44,977 nucleotides of DNA, taken from assembly GCA_005888115.1 (NCBI GenBank), contig VBKO01000335.1:1-44977 (forward strand). Direction: 5' to 3'. Shown here piece by piece: positions 3-31,592 of the stretch (the first letter of the stretch is position 1; every line of letters begins with the position of its first letter). This DNA comes from Deltaproteobacteria bacterium (lineage in GTDB: Bacteria; Myxococcota; Myxococcia; Myxococcales; 40CM-4-68-19). The translations under genes were made by a program, and so were the position numbers. Under the pieces are notes generated by a model. The model was not told where the DNA came from and did not search any database. It saw only the letters and a program-made list of their open reading frames with translations.

Positions 3-254
3 GCAGTGGGCGGCAAGGAGGTACAAGGCGTCGTGGTCGCGCCGGCGTACTTCCACCTGGCGGCGGGCGGCAGGCTCGAGGGCGTCTCGGTGAGCGCGTT
101 CAACCGCGTTCTCGGTGAGCAGCGCGGCGTTGCCATCGGGCTCTTGAACTACGCATCGCGGCTGCACGGGGTGCAGATCGGGCTAGTGAACTGGGCCGAC
201 AACAATCCCGCCGGGCTCAAGGTGCTCCCGGTCGCGAACGCCCACTTCGAGTGA
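3..254 (+). CDS. Surface-repeat protein, C-terminal fragment (5' end outside window)
   Basis: This frame is open from the left edge and ends in TGA, so only the C-terminus is present. A GTG at base 6 is probably internal. The visible part has two tandem copies of a short unit of the type GVAIGLLNYA and GVQIGLVNWA, alternating small, hydrophobic and aromatic residues. Such units occur in the surface-repeat family first annotated in Leptospira (LA_2272 type), where they are thought to form beta structure at the cell surface. Family membership is inferred from the repeat pattern. No catalytic motif is visible and the exact role is unknown. The next gene follows on the same strand after a short gap. 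Confidence 0.5.
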   Translation, partial: AVGGKEVQGVVVAPAYFHLAAGGRLEGVSVSAFNRVLGEQRGVAIGLLNYASRLHGVQIGLVNWADNNPAGLKVLPVANAHFE

Positions 255-309
255 AGCCGGCCGCTGCCCCTTGACCTGCGGCGCCAGGCACCGTTCACTC
301 GCGCTCCCG

Positions 310-1053
310 ATGGCGACGATGCTGCTGGTGAGGCACGGGCAGGCCTCGTGGTTCGAGGAGAACTACGATCGGTTGTCCACCGTGGGCGAGGCGCAGTCGC
401 GCCTCCTCGGTGAGCTGTGGGCGGGGCGCGGGCTGGAAGTGACGCGCGTGTTCACCGGCCCGCGGTTGCGGCAGGTGCGCAGCGCCGAGCTGTGCGGCGA
501 GGCCTACTCCGCCTCCGGCAGGCGCTGGCCGGCGCCGGTCGTGCTCGAGGACCTCGACGAGATGCGCATCGAGCCCATCTTCCGCGAGCAGATGCCCGAG
601 CTGTTCGAGCGGCACGCGCACCTGCGCGCGATCGGCGATTCGATGCTGGCCGCCGGCGGCGACGAGGCGCGCGCCCGCATCATGGGCCGCCTCTTCGAGG
701 GCGTGATCACGATGTGGGTCAAGGGCCAGATCGCCGCGAAGGGAGTGGAGAGCTGGGGCGACTTCCACTCCCGCGTGCAGCGGGGGCTCCGCGCCGCCCA
801 GGAATTCCGCACCGACGGAAATCTCGCGCGCTCTCCGTCGGGCCGCACGGTGGCGGTGTTCACCTCGGCGGGCGTGATCGTCGCCGCCGCGCAGACGGCG
901 CTCTCGCTCGACGACGACAAGGCGCTGGGGCTCGCCTGGCACGTGCGGAACTCGTCGGTCTCCGAGTTCCTCTTCTCCGGCGAGCGCTGGTCGCTGCGGT
1001 CGTTCAACTCCGTCCCGCACCTGCCCGACGCCGAGATGATCACGTACCGGTGA
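310..1053 (+). CDS. Histidine phosphatase (phosphoglycerate mutase-like) superfamily protein
   Basis: The protein has 247 residues from ATG 310. An upstream in-frame TTG at 271 would add 13 residues before the conserved core and is less likely. The N-terminal LLVRHGQASW (R8-H9-G10) is the phospho-histidine signature of the histidine phosphatase superfamily, and downstream GPRLRQVRSAE fits the usual arginine-containing helix. The second catalytic histidine, normally in a VSHGG-like strand, appears to be replaced: the matching segment reads VFTSAGVI, with Ser at about 186. I recall relatives with TSGG at this place, so this is probably a subfamily trait rather than decay. The substrate cannot be told. 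It is likely cytosolic. It converges on the aldo/keto reductase, whose 3' end is only 7 bases away. Confidence 0.8.
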   Translation: MATMLLVRHGQASWFEENYDRLSTVGEAQSRLLGELWAGRGLEVTRVFTGPRLRQVRSAELCGEAYSASGRRWPAPVVLEDLDEMRIEPIFREQMPELFERHAHLRAIGDSMLAAGGDEARARIMGRLFEGVITMWVKGQIAAKGVESWGDFHSRVQRGLRAAQEFRTDGNLARSPSGRTVAVFTSAGVIVAAAQTALSLDDDKALGLAWHVRNSSVSEFLFSGERWSLRSFNSVPHLPDAEMITYR

Positions 1054-1060
1054 GCGGATT

Positions 1061-1903
1061 TCACAGGGTGGGCAACTCGCGGCGGCGGCGCACCGGGAAG
1101 GCGGCGTCGATGCGAGCGAGCTCCGCCTCGCTGAGCTTCAGTCTCAGCGCGCCCGCGTTCTCCTCGGTGTGCTCGACCCGGCTCGAGCGGGGGATGGTGA
1201 AGAGCGAAGGCCGCCGCGTGAGGAAGGCGAGCGCCACCTGCCGGGGCGTGGCGCCGTGCGCCCGCGCGATCTCGGCGAGCGCCTTGCCTCCGCGCGACTG
1301 CGGGGAGGGGAAGCTGCCCGAGCCGAACGGGCTGTAGCCCACGAAGGCGATCCCCAGCTCCTCGCAGAGAGGGATGAGGCCGGCCTCCGCGTGGCGCTCC
1401 TCGAGATGGTAGAGCACCTGGTCGCACGCGATCTTGCCGCGGCCGGCGATGGCGACGGCCTTGCGGAGCAAGTCCTCGTCGAAGTTGCTCACCCCGTACG
1501 AGCGGATGGCGCCGCTGCGCTGCAGGTCCTCGAAGGCCGCGATCGTATCCTCGAGTGGGTGCTCCGACGAGGGCCAGTGCAGCAGGTAGCAGTCGAGCCG
1601 GTCGGTCCGGAGGCGCCGCAGCGACCGCTCGCAGGCGGTCACCGTGCCCCGGCGGGAAGCGTTGGAGGGGAGCACCTTGGAGACGAGGAACACCTCGTCG
1701 CGCCGCCCCTCGATCGCCTCGCCGACCATCTCCTCGACGGAGCCGTCGCCGTACATCTCGGCCGTGTCGACGTGCGCGAGGCCCAGCTCGAGGCCGCGGC
1801 CGAGCGCGGCCACCACCTGCGAGCGGTGGTGGTGCTCCAGCTGCCAGGTTCCTTGCCCGATGGGCGGAACCGACGCCTTCACCGGCCCGAATCGATTGCG
1901 CAT
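1061..1903 (-). CDS. Aldo/keto reductase
   Basis: This 280-residue protein is a typical single-domain (beta/alpha)8 NAD(P)H-dependent reductase acting on small aldehydes and ketones. The catalytic tetrad is visible: Asp46 and Tyr51 in HVDTAEMYG, Lys76 in LVSKVLPS and His109 in YLLHWP. The following YGVSNF and late IPRSSRVEH segments are the usual family signatures, the latter contacting the cofactor phosphate. The start is ATG at 1903. It lies on the minus strand 40 bases downstream of the oxidoreductase beta subunit and may be the last gene of that transcript. The physiological substrate is not evident. Confidence 0.9.
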   Translation of the reverse strand: MRNRFGPVKASVPPIGQGTWQLEHHHRSQVVAALGRGLELGLAHVDTAEMYGDGSVEEMVGEAIEGRRDEVFLVSKVLPSNASRRGTVTACERSLRRLRTDRLDCYLLHWPSSEHPLEDTIAAFEDLQRSGAIRSYGVSNFDEDLLRKAVAIAGRGKIACDQVLYHLEERHAEAGLIPLCEELGIAFVGYSPFGSGSFPSPQSRGGKALAEIARAHGATPRQVALAFLTRRPSLFTIPRSSRVEHTEENAGALRLKLSEAELARIDAAFPVRRRRELPTL

Positions 1904-25654: not shown

Positions 25655-27205
25655 CTAGTCGGGTGCGGGCACCTCGTCCAGGATGGGGCGGCGTTCCAGG
25701 ACGCGGAACTCGACGCGGCGGTTCGCTTCGCGACCGGTCCGGGTGACGTTGGTGGCCAGCGGCCGCGAGGGACCGAACCCGCGCGCCTCCAGCCGCGCGC
25801 GCTCGATCCCGTGCGAGACCAGGTAGGCGGCCACCGATCCGGCGCGGGCCTGCGACAGTACGGTGTTGGTCCGCCCGCTGCCGGTCGAATCGGTGTGCCC
25901 CTCGACCTGCACGCGCACCACGTCGGGGTGGTTCTTCAGCACGCTCACCACCTGGTCCAGCATGGCGAAAGAGCGCGGGCGGATCCGCGCGCTGCCAGGC
26001 GCGAACTGGACCTTCTCCAGGATGTCGATGCGGTCCTCGCGCATCGCCACCTTCTGGCGGCGGGACATGGGGCAGCCGCGGTTGATCACCGGCCCCTTCT
26101 CCAGCGGGCAGTTATCGAGGATGTCGGGAATGCCGTCGTCGTCGCTGTCGCGCTCCTCGGCCTCGCGCAGCGCCCGCCCGCGCGCCGCGGCCCGCTCCTC
26201 CGAGTCCTTCAAGCCGTCCCGGACGGCGCCGCGGGACGCGACGGCCGCCGCTTCTTCCTCGGCCTGAGCCAGGGCGTCGCGCAGCGCCCGCGCAGCGGCG
26301 AGCTCGGCGAGGAGCGCGTCGACGGGCGGGGCGGGCGGAGCGGCGGCTGCGCACGCGGCGGGAGCGTAGCGGACGGAGACGACCAGGCGGAGGTCGGGCG
26401 CGCCGAGCCCGTCGGAAAGGCGTGTGCCCGCCGCTCCGTCGAACGCAAGGCGCCCGAGCGCGCAGGCGCGGACGCCCAGGCGCCACTCGGCCGGCGTGGT
26501 GAGAAACGAGAGGTCGCGCACCGAAGTCTGCGCTTCCAGCTCGAGATAGGCGCGAAGGGCCGGCGCGAGGGAGTAGATCCCCGCCGCGCGCAGACCGATC
26601 TGGCTGCCCAGCCGCGCGGTTCCGAGGTCCCGGGGCGGCCGGAAACGCACCAAGGCGTTGCCGAGGAGCTCTACCCGGTCGGAGAGGCGGCGGCTGCCGG
26701 AGAGGAGCGCCTCGACCCCCAACCGCCCGTCGCCGGTCAGCGCCTGCGGCTGCGAGGTTGCCAGCTCCAGCGTGGCCTGCGCGGCGAGCGCAAGCGCAGG
26801 CGTCGAGAGGAGCGCTCCGCGCACGCCGACGCGCACGTCGCCGAGGCCTCCCCCGAGGAGGGACCCCCCGGGGCCGCCGAGGTCGCCGTCCTCGCGCAGG
26901 GTGACGGGGATCTGGACGGACAGCGAGATGCGCGAATCGACCCGGCCCTGCATCGAGATCCAGCCGCCCAGCCGGCGGTCGATGCGGGGCGGGGAAGGCC
27001 GGACCGGATTCAGGGCGCCGTCGAGCAGGAGCTGCAGCTCGATCGGGTCGACACCCTCGGGAAGCGGCCTTGCTCCCTCGACGCCCACCGTCCCGTCGCC
27101 GCCGCTGGCCGGTCGGAACAGCGACAGATCCACCTCGGGCGCCTGTGCCCCCGCCGGGAGCGCTCCGCACAACAACAGCAGCGCGCCGACCGCGCGAAGG
27201 TGCAT
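25655..27205 (-). CDS. OmpA-family outer membrane protein with thrombospondin type 3-like repeat
   Basis: The 516-residue protein begins with a signal peptide (MHLRAVGALLLLCGALPAGA). Residues to about 310 look like a beta-barrel of alternating strands. A coiled, Ala/Glu-rich helical linker (about 318-372) leads to a calcium-binding repeat (DSDDDGIPDILDNCP), then an OmpA domain with VQVEGHTDSTGS and SQARAGSVAAYLVSHGI that binds peptidoglycan. This is the common myxobacterial layout tying outer membrane to cell wall. Start ATG 27205 has AGGAGG 4 bases before it. The frame continues much further upstream without meaning. Confidence 0.88.
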   Translation of the reverse strand: MHLRAVGALLLLCGALPAGAQAPEVDLSLFRPASGGDGTVGVEGARPLPEGVDPIELQLLLDGALNPVRPSPPRIDRRLGGWISMQGRVDSRISLSVQIPVTLREDGDLGGPGGSLLGGGLGDVRVGVRGALLSTPALALAAQATLELATSQPQALTGDGRLGVEALLSGSRRLSDRVELLGNALVRFRPPRDLGTARLGSQIGLRAAGIYSLAPALRAYLELEAQTSVRDLSFLTTPAEWRLGVRACALGRLAFDGAAGTRLSDGLGAPDLRLVVSVRYAPAACAAAAPPAPPVDALLAELAAARALRDALAQAEEEAAAVASRGAVRDGLKDSEERAAARGRALREAEERDSDDDGIPDILDNCPLEKGPVINRGCPMSRRQKVAMREDRIDILEKVQFAPGSARIRPRSFAMLDQVVSVLKNHPDVVRVQVEGHTDSTGSGRTNTVLSQARAGSVAAYLVSHGIERARLEARGFGPSRPLATNVTRTGREANRRVEFRVLERRPILDEVPAPD

Positions 27206-27279
27206 CCCTCCTCCTCGGGCAGGATATCCGCCCGCCACGATCCGTCGAGGAAACGGCCGGGTCCCCGCGCAGATGGGCG

Positions 27280-28572
27280 CTACTGGGCGCGGCCCAGCGC
27301 GGAGCGGCGGGCCCAGCGCAGCACGGCGAACAGGGCCAGGCCGCCGGCCAGAGTCACCAGGGCGAATCGCAGATCGTCGCCCTTCATGTCCTTGAGGAAG
27401 AGCAGGCATCCTGCGGTGCCCGCCACGGGGATGAGTGGGCCGAACGGCAGCCGGAAGCGCCGCGGGATGTCCGGCTGCAGCCAGCGGAGCACCGGCACCG
27501 CGAGGCAGGTGGAGAGGTACTGGGCGAAGACGGCCACGTTGCCCAGGTCGGAGAGTCGATCGAAGTCCGCCCACAGGGCCAGCGCCATGGTGACCGCGGC
27601 GGTCACCACGATGGCGACCCCCGGAGTCGCGAATCTCGGATGCCGGCGGCCCAGCGCAGGAGGGACCAGCCCGTCGTCCGCCAGCGCGGAGAGATACCGC
27701 GGCCCGACCAGCGCCACCCCGGTGCAGTAGCCGAACGACGATACCGCGGCCCCGACGGTGAGCAGGCGGGCGGCCCACGGACCGGCGAAGGCGGCCGCGG
27801 CCTCGGCCAGCGGCTTGTCCGCGTTCGCCGGGTCCGGATGCGTGCCCATGAAGACGATCTCGACCAGCGCGTAGAGCAGCGTGGCGCCCAGGAGAGCGCC
27901 GAGCAGCGCCAGAGGCACGTTCCGGCGTGGATTGTCGGTCTCTCCAGCAGGAACCGGCACATACTCGAAGCCGGTGCAGGCGAAGAGACCGGCGAGCCCG
28001 CCTAGCCGCAGCGCGGTCAAGGCAGATTCTCCGTGCGGGGGCGGGACGGCGAGGCGATGCGGCTCGATGAAGAAGAGGCCCACCGCCACGAAGCCGAGCA
28101 GGGGCAACAGCTTCGCGCCGCTGAAGACGTCGCTCGCGACTGCGCCCGGCTTCACGCCGCGCCAGTTGAGCAGCGCGAGCGCGGCGACCACGGCGGCCGC
28201 CAGCGCGCCCTGCGCGAGCGGAGCGGCGAGGCTGGGAACGATGTACGACAGGTTCCTGCCCAGAGCGCGCGCCACCGCTGCATAGGAGAGCACCACCGAG
28301 GCGAACGCCATCCAGCCGACCGCGAAGCCCACCCAGTCCCCGAAGGCCGCCCGGGCGTACACGTACGGGCCGCCGCTGCGCTCGGTGCCGGAAGCGACCT
28401 CGCCGAAGCAGAGCCCGACCAGCAGGCACACCCCTCCGACCGCAAACCAGGAGGCCCAGGCGAGCCCGCCCGCGGCCGCGAAGACTCGCGCGGGCAGCAG
28501 GAAGATGCCGCTCCCGATGATTCCGTTGATGCCGATGGCGAGGCAGTCGAGGAGCGTCAAGCGGGACTTCAA
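27280..28572 (-). CDS. APC-superfamily amino acid permease
   Basis: The 430-residue inner membrane protein has about twelve hydrophobic segments. The first, LDCLAIGINGIIGSGIFLLPARV, carries the GSGIF motif of amino acid/polyamine antiporter-like permeases. GGPYVYARAAFGDWVGFAVGW and GFEYVPVPAGETDNPRRNVP follow in the usual order. Start is taken as TTG 28572, with AAGGGGAG about 9 bases before it; the longer frame adds 85 residues that look untranslated. Substrate unknown. It is divergent from rpsL and differs clearly from the permease at 4891. Confidence 0.82.
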   Translation of the reverse strand: MKSRLTLLDCLAIGINGIIGSGIFLLPARVFAAAGGLAWASWFAVGGVCLLVGLCFGEVASGTERSGGPYVYARAAFGDWVGFAVGWMAFASVVLSYAAVARALGRNLSYIVPSLAAPLAQGALAAAVVAALALLNWRGVKPGAVASDVFSGAKLLPLLGFVAVGLFFIEPHRLAVPPPHGESALTALRLGGLAGLFACTGFEYVPVPAGETDNPRRNVPLALLGALLGATLLYALVEIVFMGTHPDPANADKPLAEAAAAFAGPWAARLLTVGAAVSSFGYCTGVALVGPRYLSALADDGLVPPALGRRHPRFATPGVAIVVTAAVTMALALWADFDRLSDLGNVAVFAQYLSTCLAVPVLRWLQPDIPRRFRLPFGPLIPVAGTAGCLLFLKDMKGDDLRFALVTLAGGLALFAVLRWARRSALGRAQ

Positions 28573-28676
28573 GCGAGCGGCTCCCCTTCCGGGCGTCCGG
28601 GCGTGGCAGGATAGCGGGCAAGCGCAACGGGAAGCAACGCGCAGCCGTGGGCCCCGCTCGAGGCCCCGATCGCTGC

Positions 28677-28704
28677 TTGACACAGGGCGACTCGCCGCTA
28701 TCAT
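28677..28704 (+). promoter_or_regulatory. Sigma-70-like promoter of rpsL-rpsG
   Basis: TTGACA (28677-28682) and TATCAT (28699-28704) are separated by 16 bases, about 95 bases before rpsL. Both boxes are near consensus. The rest of the 226-base divergent region before rpsL shows no other gene. Confidence 0.72.
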
Positions 28705-28798
28705 GGCGCGCCCTTTCGCCCCGGGTGGGCGAGGGTCTCTCCTGCTTCCAGGCCGCCGCGGGCATTTTCCGAGGCGGCTCGTCTGTTGAAAGGCACTG

Positions 28799-29170
28799 AT
28801 GCCGACGATCAGCCAGCTCATCCGCAAGGGGCGCGAGAAGGTTGTCTACAAGGGCAAGGCGCCCGCGATGACCCGCTGCCCGCAGAAGCGCGGGGTGTGC
28901 ACCCGCGTCTACACCACCACCCCGAAGAAGCCGAACTCGGCGCTGCGCAAGGTCGCCCGCGTGCGACTCACCAACGGGATGGAGGTCACGAGCTACATCC
29001 CCGGCGTGGGCCACAACCTGCAGGAGCACTCGGTGGTGATGATCCGCGGCGGCCGCGTGAAGGACCTGCCGGGCGTCCGCTACCACATCATCCGCGGGAC
29101 GCTCGATTCCGTCGGCGTCGCCGGCCGCAAGCAGGGCCGCAGCAAGTACGGCGCGAAGCGCCCCACCTGA
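28799..29170 (+). CDS. rpsL: 30S ribosomal protein S12
   Basis: The 123-residue decoding-centre protein has standard length and sequence ([45 protein letters not shown]). The lysines in the [10 protein letters not shown] and GRVKDLPG loops, the usual sites of streptomycin resistance changes, are wild type. It is the first gene of the str operon and is followed by rpsG after 13 bases. Confidence 0.98.
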
Positions 29171-29183
29171 GGACTACACAGAC

Positions 29184-29654
29184 ATGCCTCGCCGTCGCGA
29201 AGTCGCCAAGCGCAAGATCCTGCCCGATCCGAAGTTCCAGGACCGGCTGCTCGCCAAGTTCATCAACGACATGATGCGGAAGGGCGAGAAGGCCGTCGCC
29301 GAGCGCGTCTGCTACCGCGCCATGGACCTCGTCCAGCAGCGGACCAACGACGATCCGCTCAAGACCTTCAAGAAGGCGCTCGACAACGTGAAGCCGGTGC
29401 TCGAGGTGAAGAGCCGGCGCGTCGGCGGCGCGACCTACCAGGTCCCGGTCGAGGTGCGCCAGGACCGGCGCACGGCGCTCGCCATGCGCTGGCTCATCGA
29501 CTACGCCAAGGAGCGCGGCGAGAAGACGATGGACCAGAAGCTCGCCGCCGAGCTGATCGACGCTTCCAACAACCGCGGCAACGCGGTGAAGAAGCGCGAG
29601 GACACGCACAAGATGGCCGAGGCCAACAAGGCCTTCGCCCACTACCGCTGGTAA
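29184..29654 (+). CDS. rpsG: 30S ribosomal protein S7
   Basis: The 156-residue protein initiates assembly of the 30S head. [19 protein letters not shown] at the start and the conserved [20 protein letters not shown] segment identify it, and the length is standard. In most bacteria fusA and tuf follow directly. Here about 2 kb with a decayed rsgA, an inverted repeat and a divergent gene separate them. Confidence 0.97.
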
Positions 29655-29658
29655 CAAA

Positions 29659-29675
29659 CGCTCGCGGAGCGAGCG
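29659..29675 (+). terminator. Short hairpin after rpsG
   Basis: CGCTCGC and GCGAGCG form a perfect 7-bp stem with loop GGA, starting 4 bases after the rpsG stop. No T-run follows. It may close the rpsL-rpsG transcript, which would agree with fusA having its own promoter. Confidence 0.45.
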
Positions 29676-29748
29676 CGTTGAGCAGTCCTGCGGGAGCGCC
29701 CCGCCTCGCGGCGCTTGGACGCGTTTCGGACTACGAGAGGACGGTCCG

Positions 29749-30318
29749 ATGCCGTCGCTCGATCTCCTCGGCTGGACTGCCGATCGCGCTGCCGCCTTCG
29801 CGCCGCACGAAGCGCGCGGCCTGCGCCCGGCGCGGGTCATGTCCGAGCACAAGGGAGGCCTCGCGCTCGCCTGGGAGGCCGGCGAGCTGCTCGGCTCGCC
29901 CGCGCGTGCGCGAGGTGCGCGTCCGCGACGAGCGGGGGCGCCACACCACCGCCCGGCGCGACCTGCTCCTCCTTCCCGACGGCGGGCTCCTGCTCGATAC
30001 GCCGGGAATGCGCGAGCTCCAGCTGTGGGACGCGGAGGAGGGCGTCGCCCGCGCCTTCCCGGACGTCGAAGAGCTCGCCTCCTCGTGCCGGTACGCCGAC
30101 TGCAGCCACGCGGGAGATGCGGGCTGCGCGGTGACCTCCGCGGTCGAGCAGGGAGACCTCGCGCCGGAGCGGCTCGACAGCTACCTTCGGCTCGCCCGCG
30201 AGATGGACCGCCTGCGCGTGCTGCAGGACGAGCGCGCCCGCGCGGAGCGGAAGGCCGGGACAAAAGCGCCCAGCGCGCGCTCCGCTCCCGCCTGCGCGAA
30301 AAGGGCCGCGGGGACTAG
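29749..30318 (+). pseudogene. rsgA: Decayed rsgA (ribosome small-subunit GTPase), internal deletion and frameshifts
   Basis: ATG 29749, with GAGAGGA before it, opens a frame (PSLDLLGWTADRAAAFAPHE, then ARVMSEHKGGLALAWEAGE) that matches the start of RsgA. At about 29895 the homology jumps to another frame, which continues with REVRVRDERGRHTTARRDLL, LLDTPGMRELQLWD and the zinc motif CRYADCSHAGDAGC. Near 30258 the tail returns to the first frame (AQRALRSRLREKGRGD, stop at 30318). The rest of the OB domain and the GTPase P-loop, roughly 180-200 residues, are missing. RsgA matures the 30S subunit. This copy cannot bind GTP. It could be decay or an assembly fault. Confidence 0.8.
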
Positions 30319-30395
30319 AGTGGGTCTCATAACCGGTTCCAGAGGCCGAGCACAGGCAGGCGGAACAAAAACGCGAACGCCGGGCGATCGTCGCA

Positions 30396-30546
30396 GAGTG
30401 CACCGGCGGAGGGGGAAATCCGCTCGCGTGCAAGGGAGGGGCACCGTCGGTGCGCCTGACCGAAGCATCGGCATACGGCACCGCACATCTCTGGCTAAAA
30501 TGTCCCGAACCAGACAGTCAGTTCAGCCGGCTGAACCGGATCGGTT
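30396..30546 (+). repeat. Left arm of a long interrupted inverted repeat
   Basis: This arm matches the reverse complement of 30622-30773. Over 30421-30536 my hand alignment gives 92 identical of 116 positions with no gap; symmetry centre is 30584.5. Near its inner end is a perfect 16-base palindrome GTTCAGCCGGCTGAAC (30521-30536). One frame reads SARVQGRGTVGAPDRSIG and, further on, KMSRTRQSVQPAEPD. The 526 bases from 30319 to 30844 hold no gene I can support other than this structure. Confidence 0.75.
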
Positions 30547-30621
30547 CTTCGCAGGGGTCTGAAACCGGGCATGTGGGTAACAGACGCTGGATAGGCCCGG
30601 CCGTACACGCCGTTGCTCCTC

Positions 30622-30773
30622 ACCGGAATCCAATTCAACCGGCTGAACTAAATGTCTGGTCCGGAACATTTTCGGCAGAGTTGCCCGGTCCGCTAGCCCG
30701 ATGCTGCGGTCAAACGCAGCGACGGGCGCCGTCCCTTGCACGCGAGCGGAGTCCCCTCTGCCGGTCCGCTCTA
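30622..30773 (-). repeat. Right arm of the long interrupted inverted repeat
   Basis: This is the mirrored copy, separated from the left arm by about 75 bases. On the minus strand it reads SARVQGTAPVAAFDRSIG and KMFRTRHLVQPVELD, so peptide similarity to the other arm is kept in frame. The inner palindrome is imperfect here (30633-30648). Two overlapping short frames cross it, and I do not call either as a gene. No transposase is nearby. It could be two inverted copies of a dispersed repeat or one palindromic element. Confidence 0.75.
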
Positions 30774-30844
30774 GCCTCACTGAAAAGCAATGGAAACCCA
30801 GGTCGTGCGTCTTCCGACGGGGAGTGGACACCCAGTGCTCGAGT

Positions 30845-31510
30845 CTAGTGCCCGACCCGCAGCTGCACGCGCAGGCACAGGTTGTCGATGCCCAGGCCGT
30901 GCAGCGGCACGTGGAAGGAGGCGCCGTCGCGCGTGAGCGGGGGGACGCGCAGGTGCACCGGCTCGACGTCCTCGATCATCCCGGTCTGCCCACAAGCGAA
31001 GCAGGCATACAACCCGTCATGGCCTTGGCCGCGGCACTCCGGACAGGGGTAGAACACCGGCACACCCAGCTCGAGCACTCCGCCGAACGCAGCCAGCTCC
31101 GGTGACACGCCGATGGTCAGATCGAGCGCCTCGAGCCGTTCGGACTTGGGCACGTTCCGCGCGGTGAAGTTCCGCAGGACCCGATCGAGCACCTCGTCCA
31201 CGGACGGATCGCGCGCCTCGAAGTCGCGGGTCAGCGAGAGCTGCTCCGGGATCAACGGTTCGGGGCGCAGAGCCATCCCCACCGTCCTCGCGGGGACAGG
31301 CGCGCCGCGGGCCTCGTCGTACGAGGCCCGGCGCTCCGGGTCCGAGAGGACCCGGTAGGCGTCGATCAGGTCTCCGAGCGAGGCGGCGCCTGGTGCGCGG
31401 ACCAAGCTGCCCGGACGGCCCAGCGTCCGTTGCCGATAGGCGGCGCGCACCGCGTCGGAGGCGACTTCGGGGGCTACTCCGAGGATCACGTAGAAATCCC
31501 GTGTCTCCAT
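30845..31510 (-). CDS. J-domain-like protein lacking the HPD motif
   Basis: The 221-residue protein starts at ATG 31510, after GGAGGAGA. Residues 5-70 look like a J domain (DFYVILGVAPEVASDAVRAAYRQ and AYRVLSDPERRASYDEA). The HPD tripeptide needed to stimulate DnaK falls on Pro-Gly-Ser (33-35). Two CxxC pairs (CPECRGQG, CFACGQTG) at about 160-180 recall half of a DnaJ zinc domain. The C-terminal VHLRVPPLTRDGASFHVPLHGLG resembles the DnaJ substrate-binding fold. It may bind substrates without driving DnaK. It is divergent from fusA. Confidence 0.7.
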   Translation of the reverse strand: METRDFYVILGVAPEVASDAVRAAYRQRTLGRPGSLVRAPGAASLGDLIDAYRVLSDPERRASYDEARGAPVPARTVGMALRPEPLIPEQLSLTRDFEARDPSVDEVLDRVLRNFTARNVPKSERLEALDLTIGVSPELAAFGGVLELGVPVFYPCPECRGQGHDGLYACFACGQTGMIEDVEPVHLRVPPLTRDGASFHVPLHGLGIDNLCLRVQLRVGH

Positions 31511-31592
31511 GGGGTTCTCCTCCGAGACAGGGCTGTGGCGCCTCCCTTTTAGGCCGGTCCCGGCGCCCGTCAAGGGCCGGCCCGCCGTTCAC

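Follow-up and report, generated by a model that had tools for sequence, protein, structure and literature searches.

The stretch of DNA analysed here (the window; 44,977 nucleotides) is contig C239 of a genome assembly of 571 contigs and 4.73 Mb, and carries a long interrupted inverted repeat in the gap between two genes that converge on it (gene flanks were called with a purpose-built codon-usage gene caller). On the left lies an rsgA-like pseudogene (29749-30318, plus strand), in which Pfam RsgA_GTPase matches profile positions 132-174 only, the remainder being frameshifted or deleted: about 50 N-terminal residues are followed by a frameshift, the P-loop half of the GTPase domain is lost and a second frameshift occurs near the C terminus. 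The right-hand neighbour is a DnaJ-domain gene on the minus strand (30845-31516; Pfam DnaJ, E = 3.4e-7). The rpoC-rpsL-rpsG-fusA order of this region is broken twice within 25655-31516, ahead of rpsL by two minus-strand ORFs that look OmpA-like and permease-like by eye, and again between rpsG and fusA, which are separated by 2 kb here and by 244 bp in the relative G009. The DnaJ-like gene is not adjacent to fusA in G001, and comparison by synteny yields no clean empty site among the relatives, whose rpsG-fusA gap varies and matches neither neighbour of the window element.

The repeat consists of two arms of 132 nt each, at 30410-30541 (plus strand) and 30628-30759 (minus strand), which a repeat search of the window finds to be 79% complementary and spaced 86 nt apart. 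The inverted repeat that the first-pass annotation placed symmetrically about position 30584.5 is thus real, and the 378-nt strand that spans it has a predicted folding energy of -244.3 kcal/mol (shuffle mean -151.9; z = -17.4; 0 of 100 shuffles equal it). The 16-base palindrome reported in the same annotation, GTTCAGCCGGCTGAAC, is present at 30521-30536 and is joined by a single-mismatch version, ATTCAACCGGCTGAAC, at 30633-30648; none of 100 shuffles reaches that count of two sites. The inter-arm loop (GGGCAYGTGGGTAAC...GCCGTTGCTC; 30542-30627) includes a motif, CCGAAACCGGGCAYRTSGGTRAC, that recurs in contigs C537, C217, C561 and C60. Homology to copies elsewhere in the genome extends the element beyond the span first noted, from about 30394 (homology to C223) to about 30840 (homology to C537, reaching 30835-30842), and takes in an end module (TCCGAGGAC-like ... 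GGTTTCCATTGCTTTTCAG) at 30769-30827 on the minus strand. The right boundary sits barely past the stop codon of the DnaJ-like gene. Because the terminal core module is absent at the left end, the window copy is 5'-truncated. A conserved small hairpin around TTGCTTTTCAG was considered and rejected, as its flanking bases pair inconsistently between copies.

A search with the inverted repeat returns 17 matches in the bacterium's own genome. The core palindrome GTTCARCCGGYTGAAC occurs there 17 times when up to one mismatch is allowed (reversed control pattern, 0) and a second module, GGTYTCNCTTGCTTTTCAGG, 26 times (12 forward and 14 reverse; control, 0), while the outer end CTCATCATCGGTCACTTC marks a further dozen. 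The palindrome, the end module, which terminates in TTGCTTTTCAGG, and the outer ends jointly define about 25-30 loci, a count that derives from searches and may be incomplete, and in which a single element may figure twice where its halves fall at contig ends. The copy search in the genome and its relatives that the first-pass annotation had proposed therefore finds a multi-copy rather than a single-copy sequence, and its suggestion of inverted copies of a dispersed repeat fits these loci. The copies range from 200 to 600 bp and are mosaics that combine the core palindrome with a terminal module and with inner arms peculiar to each subfamily. Four subfamilies can be told apart: A (the window, C537, C223, C365/C171 and C412), B (C60, C561, C297, C13 and others), C (C326 and C104) and D (C7, C257, C263, C185, C564 and C112). 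Among the simple copies, C60:1193-1808 is the most complete; its inverted ends, each about 128 bp long, are 72% identical, and it is bounded on both sides by CCCGGG inside AACTYGY...RCRAGTT half-palindromes, which could represent either the element end or a target duplication; inverted modules are also carried by C7 and C104. About nine contigs terminate inside a copy, as expected because repeats break assembly. Multiple dispersed copies, terminal inverted repeats (C60, C7 and C104) and the lack of a transposase gene of its own are among the features by which MITEs are recognised, and the family combines these three. The outer side of A-type copies shares a geneless motif, ATCAGGTGCTCGAGAARACC (C223 at about 1991, C537 at about 1770, C365 at about 260 and C171 at about 1650). 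A transposase remnant suspected beside C223, C537 and C365, which have ATCAGGTGCTCGA in common, turned out to be another shared module without a gene.

That the window copy belongs to this dispersed hairpin family is well supported. An nhmmer model built from 24 other arms finds its end module at E = 2.2e-8, and the match persists when A-type arms are left out of the model (E = 1.4e-6) and when the model contains seven D-type arms only, HNH-bearing loci included (E = 2.8e-6); the best E value for shuffled sequence is about 1. The two window arms are about 80% (79.7%) alike, and each is closer to an arm of another copy, the left arm being 88.4% identical to that of C223 and the right arm 86.6% identical to that of C537. 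Since the window arms are nearer to the arms of other copies than to each other, the palindrome spread as a unit once the arms had diverged, and the window repeat is not a local inverted duplication. Its common ground with the other subfamilies is limited to the right-hand end module and the core palindrome, and its inner arms are unlike those of the HNH-bearing copies.

At two loci, C112 and C564, the end module adjoins a DUF222-HNH endonuclease gene. The C112 element, roughly 1.7 kb long and with its left end at the contig start, encloses an intact HNH ORF of 367 aa (154-1254, minus strand). This ORF is flanked on both sides by an end module (23-62 and 1586-1625) and an inner motif (112-142 and 1498-1528), each pair being in inverted orientation. 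C564 follows the C112 layout upstream, at 78% identity across 1 kb, and has lost part of the gene. In C263, positions 87 to about 157 of C112, the latter being the HNH stop codon, are fused directly to the opposite (right) end module and the gene is missing; C257 resembles C263 in structure. Both look like internal-deletion derivatives of a C112-type element. The observation in the first-pass annotation that no transposase is seen consequently holds for the locus itself but not for its relatives in the genome, two of which carry this nuclease gene. The encoded protein family has an invariant E-x-D-H ... C-R-x-H-N signature, and two members of its alignment match Pfam HNH (E = 1e-4). PF02720 (DUF222) is matched by one of five family members (E = 1.8e-4), the C112 protein itself giving no match, and the protein-family profile finds Cas9 HNH structures at E = 3e-5.

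Outside this genome, none of 144 further genomes of the order contains the exact core AGTTCARCCGGYTGAACT, and searches with the window DNA give nothing useful among 59 other genomes. GTDB contigs yield only single chance-like matches to family modules, and viral contigs, plasmids and phages yield chance matches or none. The family, found in this bacterium only, thus appears to be confined to one species and previously uncatalogued. The HNH gene is itself many-copy in relatives (a genome from the same family gives 27 matches), where most such genes are without the end modules described here and their ends are often marked by a different palindrome, RACTYGYCCCGGGRCRAGTY. Half of RACTYGYCCCGGGRCRAGTY also terminates long copies in the present genome, and C60 is flanked by that half on both sides.

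In five related genomes the palindrome ACTYGYCCCGGGRCRAGT marks the ends of DUF222-HNH genes or lies close to them (L210, L211, L214, L220, L225, L229, L230, L233 and L235), and at L211 three copies of it surround a single DUF222-HNH gene. The exact core palindrome GTTCAACCGGTTGAAC occurs in frame, encoding VQPVE, in the inter-domain linker of two HNH paralogs, one in C517 (L191, contig position about 12650) and one in G009, of another genus (L212, 1969). Around GTTCAACCGGTTGAAC, C517 has 57 bp in common with C326 at 84% identity, and a similar stretch occurs in C104. The core palindrome piece may have moved from gene to element or from element to gene.

The family members show a marked preference for a particular genomic position. 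At 19 loci both flanking genes were called, and the pair is convergent at 14 of them, tandem at 4 and divergent at 1 (p = 1.2e-5 for convergence against an expectation of 25%). Counted as single flanks, the 3' end of the gene faces the element in 39 of 48 cases (p = 8e-6), and most copies start 0-100 bases behind a stop codon. Background gene pairs on the same contigs are convergent in 5 of 69 cases (Fisher p = 1.5e-8), this background being rich in ribosomal operons.

A placement of this kind, from a few to some 100 bases past the stop codon, together with the extreme fold energy, might be expected of a bidirectional terminator or stabiliser of 3' ends that serves the host, is kept under selection and has spread by gene conversion rather than by transposition. 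We consider this improbable: the family is restricted to one species, its copies show internal deletions and truncations, the window element lacks an intrinsic terminator followed by a T tract, base pairing beside the end-module hairpin is inconsistent from copy to copy, and a bias in retention accounts for the position with no need to invoke functional selection. That the element is a structured non-coding RNA gene or a remnant of coding sequence is barely credible, even though the predicted fold is very strong and both arms give similar peptides in one frame. The peptide similarity, which had been taken for coding-like conservation, does exist but simply follows from the inverted symmetry of the arms. 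Between A-type copies 1-nt indels disrupt the reading frame, substitutions in the arms of six A-type copies relative to the window left arm are distributed almost evenly over codon positions (9, 7, 7 and 10, 9, 9, for example) and the element frames tested give no Pfam match, all of which rules out the arms as coding sequence. As to the early suggestion of a structured RNA, a known family finds no support, since the window element matches no Rfam covariance model, and no promoter-like site was found in it.

The reading we favour, at a probability of roughly 60%, takes the inverted repeat for a diverged, non-autonomous copy, truncated at its 5' end, within a foldback/MITE-type hairpin family that is restricted to one species and descends from a 13E12-like element encoding an HNH protein, with putatively HNH-driven mobility. 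The HNH protein, supplied in trans, would recognise the element ends and cut DNA, and repair would copy the element and so spread it. Copies would persist where insertion harms least, behind stop codons between facing genes, and the hairpin there may, as a consequence, act as a two-way transcript end. A non-autonomous mobile element had already been proposed in the first-pass annotation, and the proposal fits the many copies, their absence from relatives, the terminal inverted modules, the deletion derivatives and an interrupted transposase ORF: in C208 (L153, 201-420), the end of a B-type element breaks a Y1-transposase-like ORF right after ...GKVFADR. Only tentatively do we suggest that the DUF222-HNH endonuclease drives a transposon family with palindromic ends, whose MITE progeny settle between convergent genes, and the HNH protein could be a mere passenger, since most HNH genes of the relatives are without such end modules. 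To our knowledge, the DUF222-HNH nuclease class is not generally counted among bacterial transposases, and we know of no established case of HNH-only transposition of this kind.

Were the gene a passenger or a neighbour, the family could be the MITE progeny of a conventional DDE-transposase insertion sequence that is missing from the fragmented assembly. Multi-copy insertion sequences are often lost from short-read assemblies, and the contigs that end within these elements, the classical anatomy of inverted ends and internal deletions, and the HNH genes of relatives that lack the modules are all compatible with such a loss. This alternative is a real possibility, though a doubtful one, given that no other gene lies between inverted modules among the 26 inspected, that the HNH stop codon and the opposite end are the exact limits of the C263 deletion and that matching ends are absent from other genomes of the order and from GTDB contigs. 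Movement by a RAYT (Y1 transposase) would instead make the family REP/BIME-like. Its copies are indeed palindromic, mosaic, species-specific and preferentially placed where two genes converge, features that REP sequences are also reported to show (PMC1525189, PMC3733652), and the genome has Y1_Tnp genes. However, the copies, at 200-600 bp against 20-40 bp, are ten times longer, and no association with RAYT was found: the intact Y1 genes in C3 (L159) and C146 (L158) are without a family module in the sequence inspected, on which ground a RAYT was rejected as the mobiliser, and the third Y1 gene, in C208, is the fragment broken by the element. We judge a REP/BIME-like family to be very unlikely. 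The Y1 gene in C3 is flanked by repeated GATCTCTGCCC, probably REP-like sequences of its own.

With the HNH-derived hairpin family as the preferred reading, its closest counterparts are prokaryotic MITEs and foldback (snap-back) elements, which are likewise non-coding, have terminal inverted modules and a strong hairpin, are dispersed in multiple copies and arise as internal-deletion derivatives of a gene-bearing element. The arms described here are unusually long and mosaic by comparison, and the putative parent encodes a DUF222-HNH nuclease rather than a recognised DDE or HUH transposase. Correia- and ERIC-type sequences are likewise imperfect palindromes, of 100-200+ bp, dispersed in intergenic DNA; both size and putative parent differ. 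As for the parent, REP13E12 (DUF222-HNH) is listed among the repetitive elements of Mycobacterium (PMC10589994). The present family resembles it in consisting of multi-copy repeated elements that encode a DUF222-HNH protein with the same layout of DUF222 plus HNH, although the similarity to DUF222 is weak here, being confined to the single member noted above. We know of no short non-autonomous derivatives of 13E12 with inverted ends, and of no clear account of how DUF222-HNH (13E12-type) genes move.

Comparison within a single genome can thus resolve an isolated hairpin of an uncultured organism into a family. The sharp preference of this family for gaps between facing genes allows insertion preference, purging and a role as terminator to be tested against one another. 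Short non-coding elements that have their ends in common with a DUF222-HNH gene and resemble its deletion products offer a direct handle on the movement of 13E12-type repeats and, if the HNH-driven reading is true, such repeats elsewhere would be mobile elements of the same class.
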